A DNA stretch of 64,000 nucleotides from an uncultured Pseudohongiella sp. (GTDB lineage Bacteria; Pseudomonadota; Gammaproteobacteria; Pseudomonadales; Pseudohongiellaceae), in contig CACAEJ010000007.1 in the NCBI GenBank assembly GCA_902531515.1, positions 1 through 64,000 on the forward strand, written 5' to 3'. Below, piece after piece: positions 42,809 through 47,693 of this stretch. Numbering within the stretch: position 1 is the stretch's first letter; each line of letters opens with the position of its first letter. Under the pieces are notes generated by a model, which saw only the letters and a list, made by a program, of their open reading frames with translations, was not told where the DNA came from and did not search any database. The position numbers and the translations under genes were made by a program.

Positions 42809-42835
42809 AATGGGAACACATGTTCCCATTTTTTT
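42809..42835 (+). terminator. Rho-independent terminator of the acyl-CoA dehydrogenase operon
   Basis: AATGGGAAC (42809-42817) pairs with GTTCCCATT (42822-42830), followed by a T-run. It lies 18 bases after the acyl-CoA dehydrogenase stop and covers the ATG at 42820 that could otherwise be taken as the next gene's start. Confidence 0.88.
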
Positions 42836-42867: not shown

Positions 42868-43710
42868 TTGCAACCAACCATCGCTGCAGTCATTCCAACC
42901 TTCAATAGGGGCTCGGTCGTTAGCCGAGCGATTGATTCTGTATTGCGCCAAACGCTTTTGCCCTCTGAAATTATTGTGGTTGACGATGGTTCAACTGACA
43001 ATACTGCAAACTTAATCGCTGCGAAGTATTCCACTATTTCCTATCTAAAAACCAAAAATAAGGGTGTTAGTGCTGCTAGGAATCTTGGAATAAAAAAAAC
43101 AAAAAGCGAATGGATTGCCTTTCTAGACTCAGATGATGAGTGGTTTCCTCAAAAGTTAGAGAAACAAATTGCTTATCTCTCAAGTGAACAGAATTATAAA
43201 TTAGCTCATTGTGATGAGATTTGGATTCGCAACGGTAGAAGAGTCAACCCGAAATTTAAGCATAAAAAATATGGCGGATATATTTTTGAAAAATGCCTGC
43301 CACTTTGCGTTATTTCTCCATCGGCCGTTATTATCCACAGAGAGCTGTTCGATGAATTAGGTTGTTTTGATGAAACTCTCCCAGCTTGCGAGGACTATGA
43401 TCTCTGGCTGAGGATTTGTGCTAAATACCCGGTGCTTTTTGTTGGTGAGCCCCTGCTTAATAAGTTTGGAGGTCACGAAGACCAATTATCTCAGAAGTTT
43501 TGGGGAATGGACCGATTTCGAGTTGAAGCCTTGCATAAAATCATAAAATTAGGGAATTTAAGTGAGTCTCAAAAATTAAGAGCTGCTGATGTGTTGATAG
43601 ATAAGTGCTCTGTATTAATTAGTGGTTCGGAAAAGCGTGGGAATCCTCAGTTAGCAAAGAAATATATAGATTTAGTCCGTATGTATCAGAGAGAGTCAGA
43701 TGGAGTCTAA
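42868..43710 (+). CDS. Glycosyltransferase family 2 protein
   Basis: I chose TTG 42868: AGAGG sits 6 bases upstream, the product begins LQPTIAAVIPTFNRGS as usual for GT2, and the ATG at 42820 lies inside a terminator. The ~280 residues are a GT-A fold with IIVVDDGSTDNT, an acceptor/donor metal motif LDSDDEW, and CEDYDLWLRI near 190. It likely transfers a sugar from a nucleotide sugar. Its end overlaps the next gene by 11 bases. Confidence 0.88.
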   Translation: MQPTIAAVIPTFNRGSVVSRAIDSVLRQTLLPSEIIVVDDGSTDNTANLIAAKYSTISYLKTKNKGVSAARNLGIKKTKSEWIAFLDSDDEWFPQKLEKQIAYLSSEQNYKLAHCDEIWIRNGRRVNPKFKHKKYGGYIFEKCLPLCVISPSAVIIHRELFDELGCFDETLPACEDYDLWLRICAKYPVLFVGEPLLNKFGGHEDQLSQKFWGMDRFRVEALHKIIKLGNLSESQKLRAADVLIDKCSVLISGSEKRGNPQLAKKYIDLVRMYQRESDGV

Positions 43711-44530
43711 TATTCATTTTAGTATCAATTTTGTGGTAGCGCATAAATTGGAGGCCAAACCTTTAATAAGACATTTCAATTTGAAAGCATATACCGAGAA
43801 GCCTTATGTAATTTTCAAAAATGAAAATGGAATTCGACTAATTATCTCTGGAATGGGCGCCTCAAATGCTAGCAACGCTGTAAGGTATATTTCTGAATTA
43901 AGGGGTAATAGGTTTGGCTATAGCGAAGGCTGGATTAACGTTGGAATTGCGGGTCATCGGGATCTTGAGTTAGGTACCTGCTTTTTAGTGAATAAAATAT
44001 CGAGTAAGAAAACAAAAGAAGTGTATTATCCTTCGCTAAGTATAGAAGCGAAAAATACTGAGGGACTAATAACTGTCGACAGACCGGAAAAACTGTATGC
44101 GGATGATGAGGCTTATGATATGGAAGCCGCGGGGTTCTTTAAAGCTGCGTCAATGTGCTCCGAACTAGAGCTCATAAATACCATAAAAGTGATCTCGGAT
44201 AACGAAACTAGCTCGATAGATAATATAACAGAAAAGCTTATTGAAGATTTGATGCTCAGGACACTGTCTGTCATTGATCCAGTTGTTTCCGAATTAGAAA
44301 AGAAGCTAGCGATCTTAAATCGGGTATTAGTGTTAGAGAACAATTTTCTAGAATTGGTTAAGTCAATTCACTTCACTGTTTCTCAACGTAATCAGTTGAA
44401 AAGACTCTTTCAGCGATTCGATGCTATGGGGAGAAAAAACGAACTGAGCCGTATTCTAAATTGTAATCTAGTATCGGCAGATCAACTTCTGCTAAAGTTA
44501 TCGGATGAGTTGAAAAGACAGGTTCAGTAA
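43700..44530 (+). CDS. Nucleoside-phosphorylase/MTA-SAH-nucleosidase-like protein with helical C-terminus
   Basis: In 276 residues, positions 1-~170 match the PNP/UDP phosphorylase fold: a Glu at 18 (HKLEAKPL) in the place of the MTA/SAH nucleosidase catalytic Glu12, GMGASNA (51-57), INVGIAGH (79-86), YDMEAAGFF (139-147) and VISDNET with Asp167, the usual purine-base ligand. The core is shorter than usual. The last ~105 residues form a helical region not typical of the family. It is coupled to the radical-SAM gene that starts directly after its stop codon. The substrate is unknown. Confidence 0.78.
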   Translation: MESNIHFSINFVVAHKLEAKPLIRHFNLKAYTEKPYVIFKNENGIRLIISGMGASNASNAVRYISELRGNRFGYSEGWINVGIAGHRDLELGTCFLVNKISSKKTKEVYYPSLSIEAKNTEGLITVDRPEKLYADDEAYDMEAAGFFKAASMCSELELINTIKVISDNETSSIDNITEKLIEDLMLRTLSVIDPVVSELEKKLAILNRVLVLENNFLELVKSIHFTVSQRNQLKRLFQRFDAMGRKNELSRILNCNLVSADQLLLKLSDELKRQVQ

Positions 44531-45514
44531 TTGTTTTCCGCCATATACATTGAAGAAGAAATTAAAGATTGGGATCGAGTCAAGGAAATCGTTGAACCCT
44601 TTTCCAACGTGCCTCAGATAATATGCGGACGCTATGGTGAGGTTTTTAATAGGACTAATCAAAATTTTAGAATACAAAAGCAAACTCCCGCATTGATACT
44701 CGCAAAAAAATATGGAAATCTGGTCCTTCAGGCACCTTCTGGTTATGGCTTTGAAGGAGGTCAAAGCTTTTATTTTTCTCACATGCTTAACTGCATATAT
44801 GATTGCCGGTACTGCTTTCTGCAAGGAATGTATCGTTCAGCCAACTACGTACTTTTCGTCAACTACGATGATTTTAAATCGCAAATTGAAAAAAGCATTC
44901 GCTCATGTGATGGGAATTCAATCTACTACAGTGGTTACGATTGCGATAGTTTGGCGCTTGAACCAGTAAGTTACTTTTGTGATTACTTTTTAAGAGTGTT
45001 TGAGGAGAACCCCAGCGGTATATTAGAAATCAGGACTAAAAGCACTCAGGTTCGTGCGCTATTGGAGCGGCCTCCCATTCCAAATTGCATAATTGCAATG
45101 AGCTTTTCGCCGCAAAAATCAGCATTACTATTTGAGCATAAGGTGCCTTCAATACAAAAGCGTATTCAGGCGTTAGAAAAACTTCAGGCAAAAGGTTGGA
45201 AAATAGCGATTCGCTTTGAACCTGTAATCTTTGAAAATAGACTTGTAGAAAATTATAAGGTTTTATTTGAACAAATTTTTGATTCTCTAGATGTTCACCA
45301 GTTGCATTCTGTAAGTCTCGGAGAGTTCAGGATGCCTAAAGCTTATTATAAGAGCGTAGTGAAGCTTTATCCTGATGAGGAGCTATTTGCTCGCGAAACT
45401 AAAGTGGAGGGAGGTATGATTTCGCTTAAAGACACAGGCACTGATTCGCTCCGAAATCTTGAAGATATGTTGCAAACATACGTTAGTCATGAAAAATATT
45501 ATTTCTGTGGATGA
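44531..45514 (+). CDS. Spore-photoproduct-lyase-like radical SAM protein
   Basis: TTG 44531 follows the previous TAA immediately; ACAGG is 8 bases upstream. The 327-residue protein has SHMLNCIYDCRYCFLQGMY, giving a CxxxCxxC radical SAM motif at Cys88, Cys92, Cys95. The spacing and neighbouring residues match the SPL family, which repairs thymine dimers. The C-terminus ends in YYFCG. The organism is not a spore former by gene content, so the role is likely different; it may act on a nucleoside or nucleic acid with the neighbouring nucleosidase-like protein. Confidence 0.82.
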   Translation: MFSAIYIEEEIKDWDRVKEIVEPFSNVPQIICGRYGEVFNRTNQNFRIQKQTPALILAKKYGNLVLQAPSGYGFEGGQSFYFSHMLNCIYDCRYCFLQGMYRSANYVLFVNYDDFKSQIEKSIRSCDGNSIYYSGYDCDSLALEPVSYFCDYFLRVFEENPSGILEIRTKSTQVRALLERPPIPNCIIAMSFSPQKSALLFEHKVPSIQKRIQALEKLQAKGWKIAIRFEPVIFENRLVENYKVLFEQIFDSLDVHQLHSVSLGEFRMPKAYYKSVVKLYPDEELFARETKVEGGMISLKDTGTDSLRNLEDMLQTYVSHEKYYFCG

Positions 45515-45539
45515 GTAATAAATGTTAGAGGTCTAGGTG

Positions 45540-46265
45540 ATGAATACTAGTGTAAATGGAATGGTAGTGCTTACTGGAGCTTCCTCGGGGATTGGGTTGG
45601 CAATGACTAAAGCACTGCTTAAGAATGGGTATTTCGTTATTGGAATATCGAAAACTTCTGGAATTGAGACTATAAAGTCAGAGAATTTTAAGCTGGAAAA
45701 ATTGGATCTCTCAAAGTTGGATGCATTACCTGATAAACTTGAAAAAATTATCGCTGAGATTGATGTGCCGATAAGAGCATTAGTGCATAGTGCAGGTATA
45801 GGTAAATTTGGTTCCGTTGAACAACTGGCAGTCTCAGACATGAAGTTAGTTATGGAAACTAACTTTTTAAGCCATGCTATTGTAACTAAAGTTTTTCTTC
45901 CAATCTTAAAACGGCAACAAAAGCTAGCTGATATAATCTTTATCGGGTCAGAATCATCGATTTCGGGTGGGCGCTATGGGAGCATTTATTGTGCTAGTAA
46001 ATTTGCAGTTCGCGGTTTTGCTCAGTCACTAAGAGAGGAATGCGCTAAAACTTCAGTTAGAGTTTCCATCTTGAATCCGGGGGCGGTGAGAACCAATTTT
46101 TTTGATGGTTTAAATTTTGAGCCGGGATCTTCGCCAGACAATGCAATTAATCCTGAAGATGTTGCAAAAGTTTTATTGACAATTATAGAGGCTCGCCCTG
46201 GAACAGTAATTGATGAGGTGAATCTCTCGCCTCAGACAAAGGTTTGGAATCGAAAATCTAGCTAG
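45540..46265 (+). CDS. SDR-family oxidoreductase (third)
   Basis: ATG 45540 is used, with AGAGG 8 bases upstream, 25 bases after the radical SAM gene. The 241-residue SDR has VLTGASSGIGLAMTKALL, HSAGIGKFG, a Ser in GSESSISGG and YCASK. This order places it as the last gene of the GT2/nucleosidase/radical SAM cluster; its role is probably reduction or oxidation of a cluster product. Confidence 0.87.
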   Translation: MNTSVNGMVVLTGASSGIGLAMTKALLKNGYFVIGISKTSGIETIKSENFKLEKLDLSKLDALPDKLEKIIAEIDVPIRALVHSAGIGKFGSVEQLAVSDMKLVMETNFLSHAIVTKVFLPILKRQQKLADIIFIGSESSISGGRYGSIYCASKFAVRGFAQSLREECAKTSVRVSILNPGAVRTNFFDGLNFEPGSSPDNAINPEDVAKVLLTIIEARPGTVIDEVNLSPQTKVWNRKSS

Positions 46266-46349: not shown

Positions 46350-46721
46350 ATGAATTTACTAAGGATTATGATCAAGACGTTTCTCTGCATGTTGCTGGCG
46401 TTACCTGCATTGGTTCAAGCGCATACCGCACTGAAGGAATCTACTCCGGGGGATGGTGTAACTATCTCGACTATACCTTCTAATTTAGATTTAGTTTTCA
46501 ATGCAGACGTTCGGCTTATTAAGCTGGAATTAATGGGCGTCGGACATGAAATGGCTACGAATTTTGAGCCATCTAGTGAAGTGACAAGCATCTATAAAAT
46601 TCAAACTCCGGGGATGCATCCAGGAGAGTTTACTGTCAACTGGGCTGCAATTGGTTCTGATGGGCATACTGTTACAAATTCTTTTAGTTTTGTGGTAGAT
46701 CCGACCGCAGCGGCTGATTGA
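46350..46721 (+). CDS. copC: Periplasmic copper-binding protein CopC
   Basis: This 123-residue protein has a signal peptide cleaved before His25 (VQA-HTALKESTPGDG). In CopC proteins the mature N-terminal His and the Asp/His of GSDGHTV (here Asp104 and His106) bind Cu2+; all are present. The remainder is the CopC beta fold (LVFNADVRLIKLEL). It is 60 bases upstream of copD, in the same direction. Confidence 0.92.
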   Translation: MNLLRIMIKTFLCMLLALPALVQAHTALKESTPGDGVTISTIPSNLDLVFNADVRLIKLELMGVGHEMATNFEPSSEVTSIYKIQTPGMHPGEFTVNWAAIGSDGHTVTNSFSFVVDPTAAAD

Positions 46722-46781
46722 AAGATTGGTACTGAAAGCTTCAGCATCAATAGCTCTGCGTAGGTTGTTATCAGGATGTTG

Positions 46782-47693
46782 ATGATCCCATCGGGCTGGG
46801 AGCTGTTGGACCTGGTCTGTAAGCTTCTCACTTATCTTGGGGCGGCTAGTTTATCTGGATCCATCTTTTGTTTGTGGCTCTTTAAAAATGAATCTAGACA
46901 GATGAGCCATGAGATTCTAACTTATTTGGCAGCCGGAGTATTTCTGGGTTTTCAAGGCGCATTACTGCGCTTCTTTGTCCAAGTTGGGATGGTTGTGGAC
47001 AATGGTTTGGTTGGTATGTTCGACTGGGGGATGGCCAAAATCTATTTTGATTCCCCGATAGGAGATACCACTTTTTTTCAATTATGTGGTTTTGTTTTGG
47101 CTTTTTTCTTCGGGACAGTGGCTCGCAAGAAAATCGGAACGGGTACTAGTCACTCTACTCAAAATTCTTTGCAATTTTTCAACTTTGGAAGTCTCATCGC
47201 TTTTCTTCTGTTAGTCTTTAGCTTTCGATTTTCCGGACATATATCCGTCCTAAGTACAATCTCAAAACTTGCTATCGTACTTCATTACTCTGCATTTTCG
47301 GCATGGATTGGCTCTCTTTATCCGCTTTGCCTTTTATCTTTTTCAAAGGACATTCGTTTTATTCGAAGCCGCGTAAAGGCTTTTGGAGATTGGGCTGTAT
47401 TTATGGTGTCCGTACTAATTATTGCTGGCGGATTTATGTTATTGGATTTATTTGGCTCCATTGACGAAATATTTTCTACTGATTACGGCATGGTAGTTTT
47501 AGTTAAATTATCTTTGGTAATCGCCATTATCGGCATTGCTGTCATTAATCGAGTTAGATTGACACCCAACATTGTGACTCACAAGGGAGTCAGGCAGTTT
47601 CGTAATTCGGTAACAATAGAAATTTTTGTAGCATTACTGATTCTTATTGTAACTACATACTTGTCTACAGTTGTGGGACCACCGGAGCATTAG
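46782..47693 (+). CDS. copD: Copper import membrane protein CopD
   Basis: ATG 46782 is preferred over ATG 46776, since CAGG lies 6 bases upstream of it. The ~303-residue protein has about eight membrane helices. CopD-family features include KLAIVLHYSAFSAWIGSLYPL (His in a membrane helix) and VVLVKLSLVIAIIGIAVINRVRL. With CopC it likely moves copper across the inner membrane for cuproenzyme assembly. Confidence 0.88.
   Translation: MIPSGWELLDLVCKLLTYLGAASLSGSIFCLWLFKNESRQMSHEILTYLAAGVFLGFQGALLRFFVQVGMVVDNGLVGMFDWGMAKIYFDSPIGDTTFFQLCGFVLAFFFGTVARKKIGTGTSHSTQNSLQFFNFGSLIAFLLLVFSFRFSGHISVLSTISKLAIVLHYSAFSAWIGSLYPLCLLSFSKDIRFIRSRVKAFGDWAVFMVSVLIIAGGFMLLDLFGSIDEIFSTDYGMVVLVKLSLVIAIIGIAVINRVRLTPNIVTHKGVRQFRNSVTIEIFVALLILIVTTYLSTVVGPPEH

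Follow-up and report, generated by a model that had tools for sequence, protein, structure and literature searches.

A spore photoproduct lyase-like radical SAM protein and its nucleosidase-like partner in an uncultured Pseudohongiella sp.: a conserved gene set that probably builds a nucleoside-derived molecule

Which task brings a radical S-adenosylmethionine (SAM) protein that resembles spore photoproduct lyase (SPL) together with a nucleosidase-like protein, a family 2 glycosyltransferase (GT2) and a short-chain dehydrogenase/reductase (SDR)? The question is raised by four genes in the window, our term for the whole stretch of 64,000 nucleotides analysed here, from an uncultured Pseudohongiella sp. 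(assembly GCA_902531515.1, contig CACAEJ010000007.1, positions 1 to 64,000 of the forward strand). A first-pass annotation had read them as one tightly coupled cluster that serves either a nucleoside-derived or nucleic-acid-derived product or a repair path. The four open reading frames (ORFs) were confirmed, all on the + strand: the GT2 gene (P0001, 42868..43710), the nucleosidase-like gene (P0002, 43700-44530), the SPL-like radical SAM gene (P0003, 44531..45514) and the SDR gene (P0004, 45540..46265). Their tight coupling was reproduced in full: the nucleosidase-like ORF overlaps the GT2 ORF by 11 bases, the TTG start of the SPL-like gene abuts the nucleosidase TAA, and the SDR gene begins after a 25-base gap. 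We conclude that this conserved gene set probably builds a nucleoside-derived molecule.

The cluster is real and conserved, and its arrangement is found again too many times to be a coincidence. Genome contigs were scanned with the SPL-like protein of the window, and of 102 relatives the 80 most similar to it were kept as loci; all 80 carry titles of metagenome-assembled genomes, in which mis-binning is possible. By title they are mostly Gammaproteobacteria, which we therefore take to be the window's class, and Thermoanaerobaculia, Omnitrophota, Planctomycetota, Neomarinimicrobiota and some others have one locus each. The nucleosidase gene ends at most 300 bases upstream of the SPL-like start in 74 of the 80 loci, with a median gap of 1.5 bases; if only the 76 loci whose upstream flank reaches 900 bases or more are counted, L031 and L034 are the sole exceptions (74 of 76). 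A GT2 orthologue precedes the nucleosidase gene in 48/80 loci and an SDR orthologue follows the SPL-like gene in 51/80. All four genes stand in a row in 29 of the 68 loci with enough flank, and two similar loci (L013 and L050) have an aldo/keto reductase gene at the place of the SDR gene. Among 58 near relatives, the window genome included, the SPL-like gene was found in 27, all of the window's genus (27/37), and in none of the 21 from other families of the order. Both genes are present in four genomes of one family of five, and neither in the fifth.

The first-pass annotation had staked its proposal on homologues that co-occur across genomes, and they do. We sampled the window's class (323 genomes, requested at a completeness of at least 90%, plus the window's own) with a match threshold of E 1e-20 for the nucleosidase and the Pfam cut-off for SPL-family proteins. 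Window-type SPL was found in 43 genomes, the nucleosidase in 53 and an SPL-family protein in 57; two further window-type matches were weak and belong to another SPL family. An SPL-family protein is present in 52 of the 53 genomes with the nucleosidase versus 5 of the 270 without it (Fisher p 4.5e-53, uncorrected for relatedness), which together with the adjacency in 74/80 loci bears out the idea of one functional cluster linking radical SAM protein and nucleosidase. The 53 nucleosidase genomes comprise 41 with window-type SPL, 11 with a different, long-type SPL and one (G296) with none. Ten of the long-type SPLs are whole, at 411-476 residues, and the one of G374 is truncated where its contig stops; the nucleosidase of G296 runs into a contig edge and carries the C-terminal extension described below. 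The five SPL genomes without a nucleosidase match are G104 and G315, to which we return, and G122, G326 and G237, which belong to one further family. Within the class, the nucleosidase occurs in 39 of the 245 genera sampled, and G275 and G217 retain the genes in the genome though apart on it. In a phylum-wide sample of 299 genomes, the nucleosidase (E 1e-15) was found solely in the window's own genome, and SPL above cut-off in six, namely the window's own and five of one other genus, the latter without nucleosidase; the pairing therefore concerns particular SPL types and not the phylum at large.

P0002 scores 14.1 bits against PF01048, below the cut-off of 25.1. A profile built from 58 orthologues finds solved 5'-methylthioadenosine/S-adenosylhomocysteine nucleosidases (MTANs) with a best E of 3.1e-9, and the model of P0002 (pLDDT 93.4) matches MTAN folds. 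Residues E18 (43751-43753), E142, S166 and D167 (S166-D167, 44195-44200) are invariant in the 58 sequences and M141 is conserved in at least 90%, with the MEAA motif at 44120-44131; the family Glu, MEAA and Asp residues are thus retained, as had been noted earlier. We take these residues to be equivalent to the MTAN catalytic set, from the profile alignment and the usual MTAN numbering, and on this alignment the catalytic Glu, Met-Glu and Ser-Asp set of the MTAN/PNP_UDP_1 superfamily is present in P0002. A usable active site of the core, on which the first-pass annotation had also staked its proposal, appears likely, as judged from the invariant residues and the MTAN-like fold. P0002 differs from MTANs in its score below the PF01048 cut-off, its shorter core and its extra helical domain. 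The orthologue profile also relates the core weakly to CT263 (E 0.044), which we take to be a compact nucleosidase and a candidate futalosine-pathway enzyme, and the one short form of the nucleosidase that was scanned (L171) has futalosine hydrolase as its best NCBIfam match (29.5 bits, below cut-off). Another PF01048 protein above cut-off, assigned at PF01048 and not at MTAN level, coexists in 23 of the 27 near relatives with the SPL-like gene. P0002 is therefore hardly the general nucleosidase of the cell, and we rejected a replacement of that enzyme as its role.

The nucleosidase core (residues 1-192, 43700..44275) is followed by a C-terminal helical extension (residues 193-276, 44276..44527). 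The first-pass annotation had recognised it at a length of about 105 residues; the extension stands and the length does not, since we find about 85 residues from around residue 193. The extension appears where window-type SPL is present: it was found in 41/41 genomes with nucleosidase and window-type SPL, and it is absent in 11/11 with the other SPL type. In the profile search behind these end-points, which reads through stop codons, the 41 nucleosidases beside window-type SPL match to position 261 or beyond, and the 11 others stop at 187-223, with no extension match better than E 0.17. Beside these short forms lie a GT2 gene in 10/11 and an SDR gene in 8/11 cases, so a GT2-nucleosidase-SDR arrangement exists also without an intervening SPL. 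In G104 and G315, the extension can still be recognised in the interval from GT2 to SPL (E 2.7e-13 and 1.7e-8) and the core cannot (2.0 and 2.7 bits), a dissociation that points to the extension as the putative SPL-facing part of the nucleosidase. The N-terminal helices of long-type SPLs gave no HMMER match to the extension and a weak hhalign result (E 0.071, probability 0.8%), and a domain swap based on homology of the two is not claimed.

The two proteins are joined outright in another phylum. Fusobacterium vincentii encodes nucleosidase and SPL fused in one ORF of 623 residues, in which the nucleosidase core scores 126 bits and the SPL domain 61 bits to PF20903. An SDR gene lies 212 bases after the fusion and scores 169 bits with the cluster SDR profile, versus 87 and 77 bits for two other SDRs of the window; no GT2 gene was seen beside the fusion by eye in the local ORF list. 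The linker scores 0.8 bits with the extension profile, and we do not claim that it corresponds to the extension. Fusobacterium is an anaerobe. The record in question (L200, NZ_CP084075.1) is 2.1 Mb long, is filed as a plasmid in PLSDB with one annotated feature, and by its size looks like a chromosome. Among plasmid records the nucleosidase was found only in this Fusobacterium record, and long-type SPL in that record and as Bacillus splB.

P0003 scores 48 bits against PF20903 (cut-off 27), and its model (pLDDT 89.6) matches 4fhg in Foldseek (E 1.3e-18, TMq 0.81), which confirms the resemblance to SPL seen at first pass. With the spore photoproduct lyases (PF20903, TIGR04070; 4fhc-4fhg, 4k9r) it shares this fold, the CxxxCxxC motif and the Y94 and D139 columns; scores against TIGR04070 (66 bits, cut-off 400) and TIGR03886 (49 bits, cut-off 438) are both below cut-off. 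As described in PMC5368176, the SPL of Bacillus subtilis repairs its lesion with the hydrogen-donor Cys C141 and the relay tyrosines Y99 and Y97. We aligned 81 window-type sequences, the ten whole long-type SPLs (leaving out the truncated eleventh one, of G374), five from the other genus of the phylum and two of family f88; the PDB row is a Y98F mutant, the wild type having Tyr by the entry title and in 4fhg. The three radical SAM cysteines (C88-C92-C95, at 44792..44818 together with F96) are kept in 81/81. The donor column (C141 in B. subtilis, Gt C140), whose position agrees across three separate comparisons, holds Tyr136 in 81/81 window-type sequences (Y136-D-C-D-S140, 44936..44950), and the relay column (B. 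subtilis Y99, Gt Y98) holds Phe96 in 80/81 and Tyr in one, whereas the Y97 column (Tyr94) is Tyr in all 81 and the Asp139 column is also kept. The ten whole long-type SPLs have Gln in the donor column (10/10), Ser or Thr in the Y99 column and Tyr in the Y97 column, and the Fusobacterium fusion retains Tyr in the Y99 column. Elsewhere, the donor column is Cys in three and Glu in two of the five SPL-family proteins of the other genus, Glu in both f88 proteins and Cys in the PDB SPL. Since the donor Cys and relay Tyr of SPL are replaced, repair of DNA photoproducts is unlikely, and P0003, with its SPL fold and a nucleosidase as partner, is probably not a spore photoproduct lyase.

Two further observations concern the SPL-like proteins. 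In two genomes of the window's genus (L106/L108 in G033:C119, and L107/L109 in G030:C32) the SPL-like match is split within one open frame, with parts about 55 and about 68 residues apart; the split lies near residue 125, just before SGYDCDSLA, as an apparent in-frame insertion. A C-terminal Cys at the position of P0003 residue 326 occurs in 76/81 window-type and 10/10 whole long-type proteins.

Partnerships of a radical SAM enzyme with a base-releasing enzyme are known, one case being MqnE and MqnB in menaquinone biosynthesis. The cluster shares with MqnE/MqnB and Chlamydia CT263 the logic of a radical SAM enzyme and a compact nucleosidase, along with the weak CT263 and futalosine-hydrolase similarity above; MqnE itself is a distant fold match to P0003 (6xig, TMq 0.40). 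In the HpnH/HpnG route of hopanoid side-chain synthesis, according to PMC12583986, diploptene takes up an adenosyl radical, the adenine is then cleaved off, and after reduction of the ribosyl product a glycosyltransferase (HpnI) may attach a sugar. The likeness lies in a radical SAM enzyme with a nucleosidase or phosphorylase, followed by reduction and glycosylation, and the difference in HpnH, which is of another radical SAM family than P0003. Our gene set fits this order, and we propose, with a probability of roughly 40%, that the cluster is a biosynthetic module working like HpnH/HpnG or MqnE/MqnB. The SPL-fold enzyme would generate a 5'-deoxyadenosyl radical that most likely adds to an unsaturated acceptor, or would otherwise make an adenosyl-linked intermediate; the nucleosidase would dock by way of its helical extension, or be fused as in Fusobacterium, and release adenine; the SDR, or the aldo/keto reductase of two loci, would reduce the exposed sugar carbonyl; and the GT2 would add a sugar. 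We infer the docking, the adenosylation chemistry, the order of steps, the acceptor, the substrate and the product; observed are the linkage, the co-occurrence in the class, the extension that tracks SPL, the fusion, the invariant nucleosidase set and the lost SPL relay residues. Of 55 cluster genomes only 7 have HpnH above cut-off, and the window's genome (67% complete) is not one of these; the acceptor would therefore not be a hopanoid in most, and a hopanoid link was rejected.

A broader proposal is more tentative, and we hold it rather doubtful: this SPL clade might comprise an unrecognised class of radical adenosyltransferases, docked by a helical domain or fused to a dedicated nucleosidase. 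In Fusobacterium and many bacteria not yet cultured, they would make a new class of glycosylated metabolite or lipid of the C-ribosyl or ribityl kind. If the adenosylation chemistry proposed for the cluster is right, it adds to the known examples in which depurination is coupled to radical adenosylation, and a small helical domain marks the partnership. Such genes are likely annotated as spore photoproduct lyase in non-sporulating bacteria, whereas our results speak for a separate radical SAM/nucleosidase pathway. No description of the pairing was found in the open literature searched, by titles and abstract starts, among the matches listed, in agreement with the earlier impression that the combination is uncharacterised.

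Several observations weigh against the proposed module. The exceptional loci have no adjoining nucleosidase gene, L031 having SPL with SDR and L034 SPL alone, and the GT2 (48/80) and SDR (51/80) genes are far from universal. The distance correlation between nucleosidase and SPL (0.93, 35 loci) is hardly greater than that between SPL and SDR (0.92), with 0.83-0.89 for the other pairs. Ten of the 11 genomes with a short nucleosidase carry their SPL on another contig. In G104 and G315, nucleosidase activity may have been lost with the recognisable core, so that depurination would be dispensable there or supplied elsewhere, and the window's own genome (67% complete) gave no PF01048 match. C138 (80/81) is two positions away from the donor column of SPL; the Fusobacterium fusion has Thr at this place and long-type SPLs have Ser. 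Clostridium SPL uses a Cys elsewhere, according to PMC5368176, and here too another Cys may serve as hydrogen donor.

The main rival to a biosynthetic module holds that the nucleosidase is a disposal partner that removes inhibitory 5'-deoxyadenosine, while the SPL-like enzyme abstracts hydrogen from an unrelated substrate that SDR and GT2 then finish. It agrees with the inhibition of radical SAM enzymes by 5'-deoxyadenosine reported in the abstract of PMC8102628, with the invariant MTAN-like active-site residues, and with the loss of the core while SPL and extension stay, as if another nucleosidase had taken over. However, another PF01048 protein is already present in 23/27 cluster-bearing near relatives, and there is no clear need for this one radical SAM family to have a tracked or fused nucleosidase of its own; we consider disposal unlikely, if still the best of the alternatives.

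Quite improbable, in our judgement, is a role in nucleic-acid repair or modification, in which a pyrimidine lesion or modification would be reversed, or made, by the SPL-like enzyme and a base would be taken off by the nucleosidase. The SPL fold, the kept Asp139 and Tyr94 columns and SAM motif, and the tRNA-modification genes beside a few loci (L178, L172) would suit it, but the donor Cys and relay Tyr are replaced, the MTAN-type fold of the partner acts on free nucleosides, a fused form exists in the anaerobe Fusobacterium, and GT2 and SDR are left unexplained. The nucleoside-derived product, one of the two options offered at first pass, is supported, and repair is not. That four unrelated genes are fortuitous neighbours kept by common descent is barely credible: GT2 and SDR are missing from many loci and gene families hold fixed downstream places in 14/80, but the co-occurrence counts already contradict it, with the nucleosidase in 39/245 genera nearly always accompanied by SPL, the genes retained though apart in G275 and G217, the extension tracking SPL and the fusion in another phylum.

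A mobile or defence role was rejected: PADLOC gave no match for any of six proteins, no relative of SPL was found on viral contigs, and PHROGs gave no match for the nucleosidase, the fusion or long-type SPL, one weak match of unassigned function for P0003 and generic matches for GT2 and SDR. Neither could a function be drawn from outside neighbours. The next same-strand gene family outside the four core genes (antisense ORFs to core genes excluded) recurs in 14/80 loci only, and around nine long-type SPLs just two neighbour pairs resemble each other, the nine neighbours scanned with Pfam having no visible common feature or theme.

Of the flanking genes of the cluster, P0001 (PF00535, 116 bits) has a TTG start and the residues D40-G41-S42, D87, D89-D90 and E175-D176 invariant in 36 sequences, and P0004 (PF00106, 126 bits; alternative GTG start at 45537) has Y150 and K154 invariant in 35. 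A terminator-like hairpin with a T run (42809..42835, hairpin 42809-42830, + strand, nine pairs), a consensus match only, lies between the cluster and the upstream acyl-CoA dehydrogenase gene, and an in-frame ATG of the GT2 gene at 42820 falls within it; five such matches were found in the region versus 3.5 expected in shuffles. Downstream of the SDR gene lie CopC and CopD copper genes (46350-47693), and families at similar relative positions occur in 14/80 loci, their identity there coming from position only. At single loci, a tRNA-dihydrouridine synthase gene directly follows at L178:4241-5206 (by Pfam) and, judged by eye, at L072:4908-5870, and L172 has a TrmO gene after its SDR gene. A gene for a small DSP/PTP-like phosphatase directly precedes the nucleosidase gene at L022:4726-5184, where it lies between GT2 and nucleosidase, and at L023:4710-5186. 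A PemK/MazF-like gene (L192:5812-6399) adjoins the long-type SPL gene in one genome.

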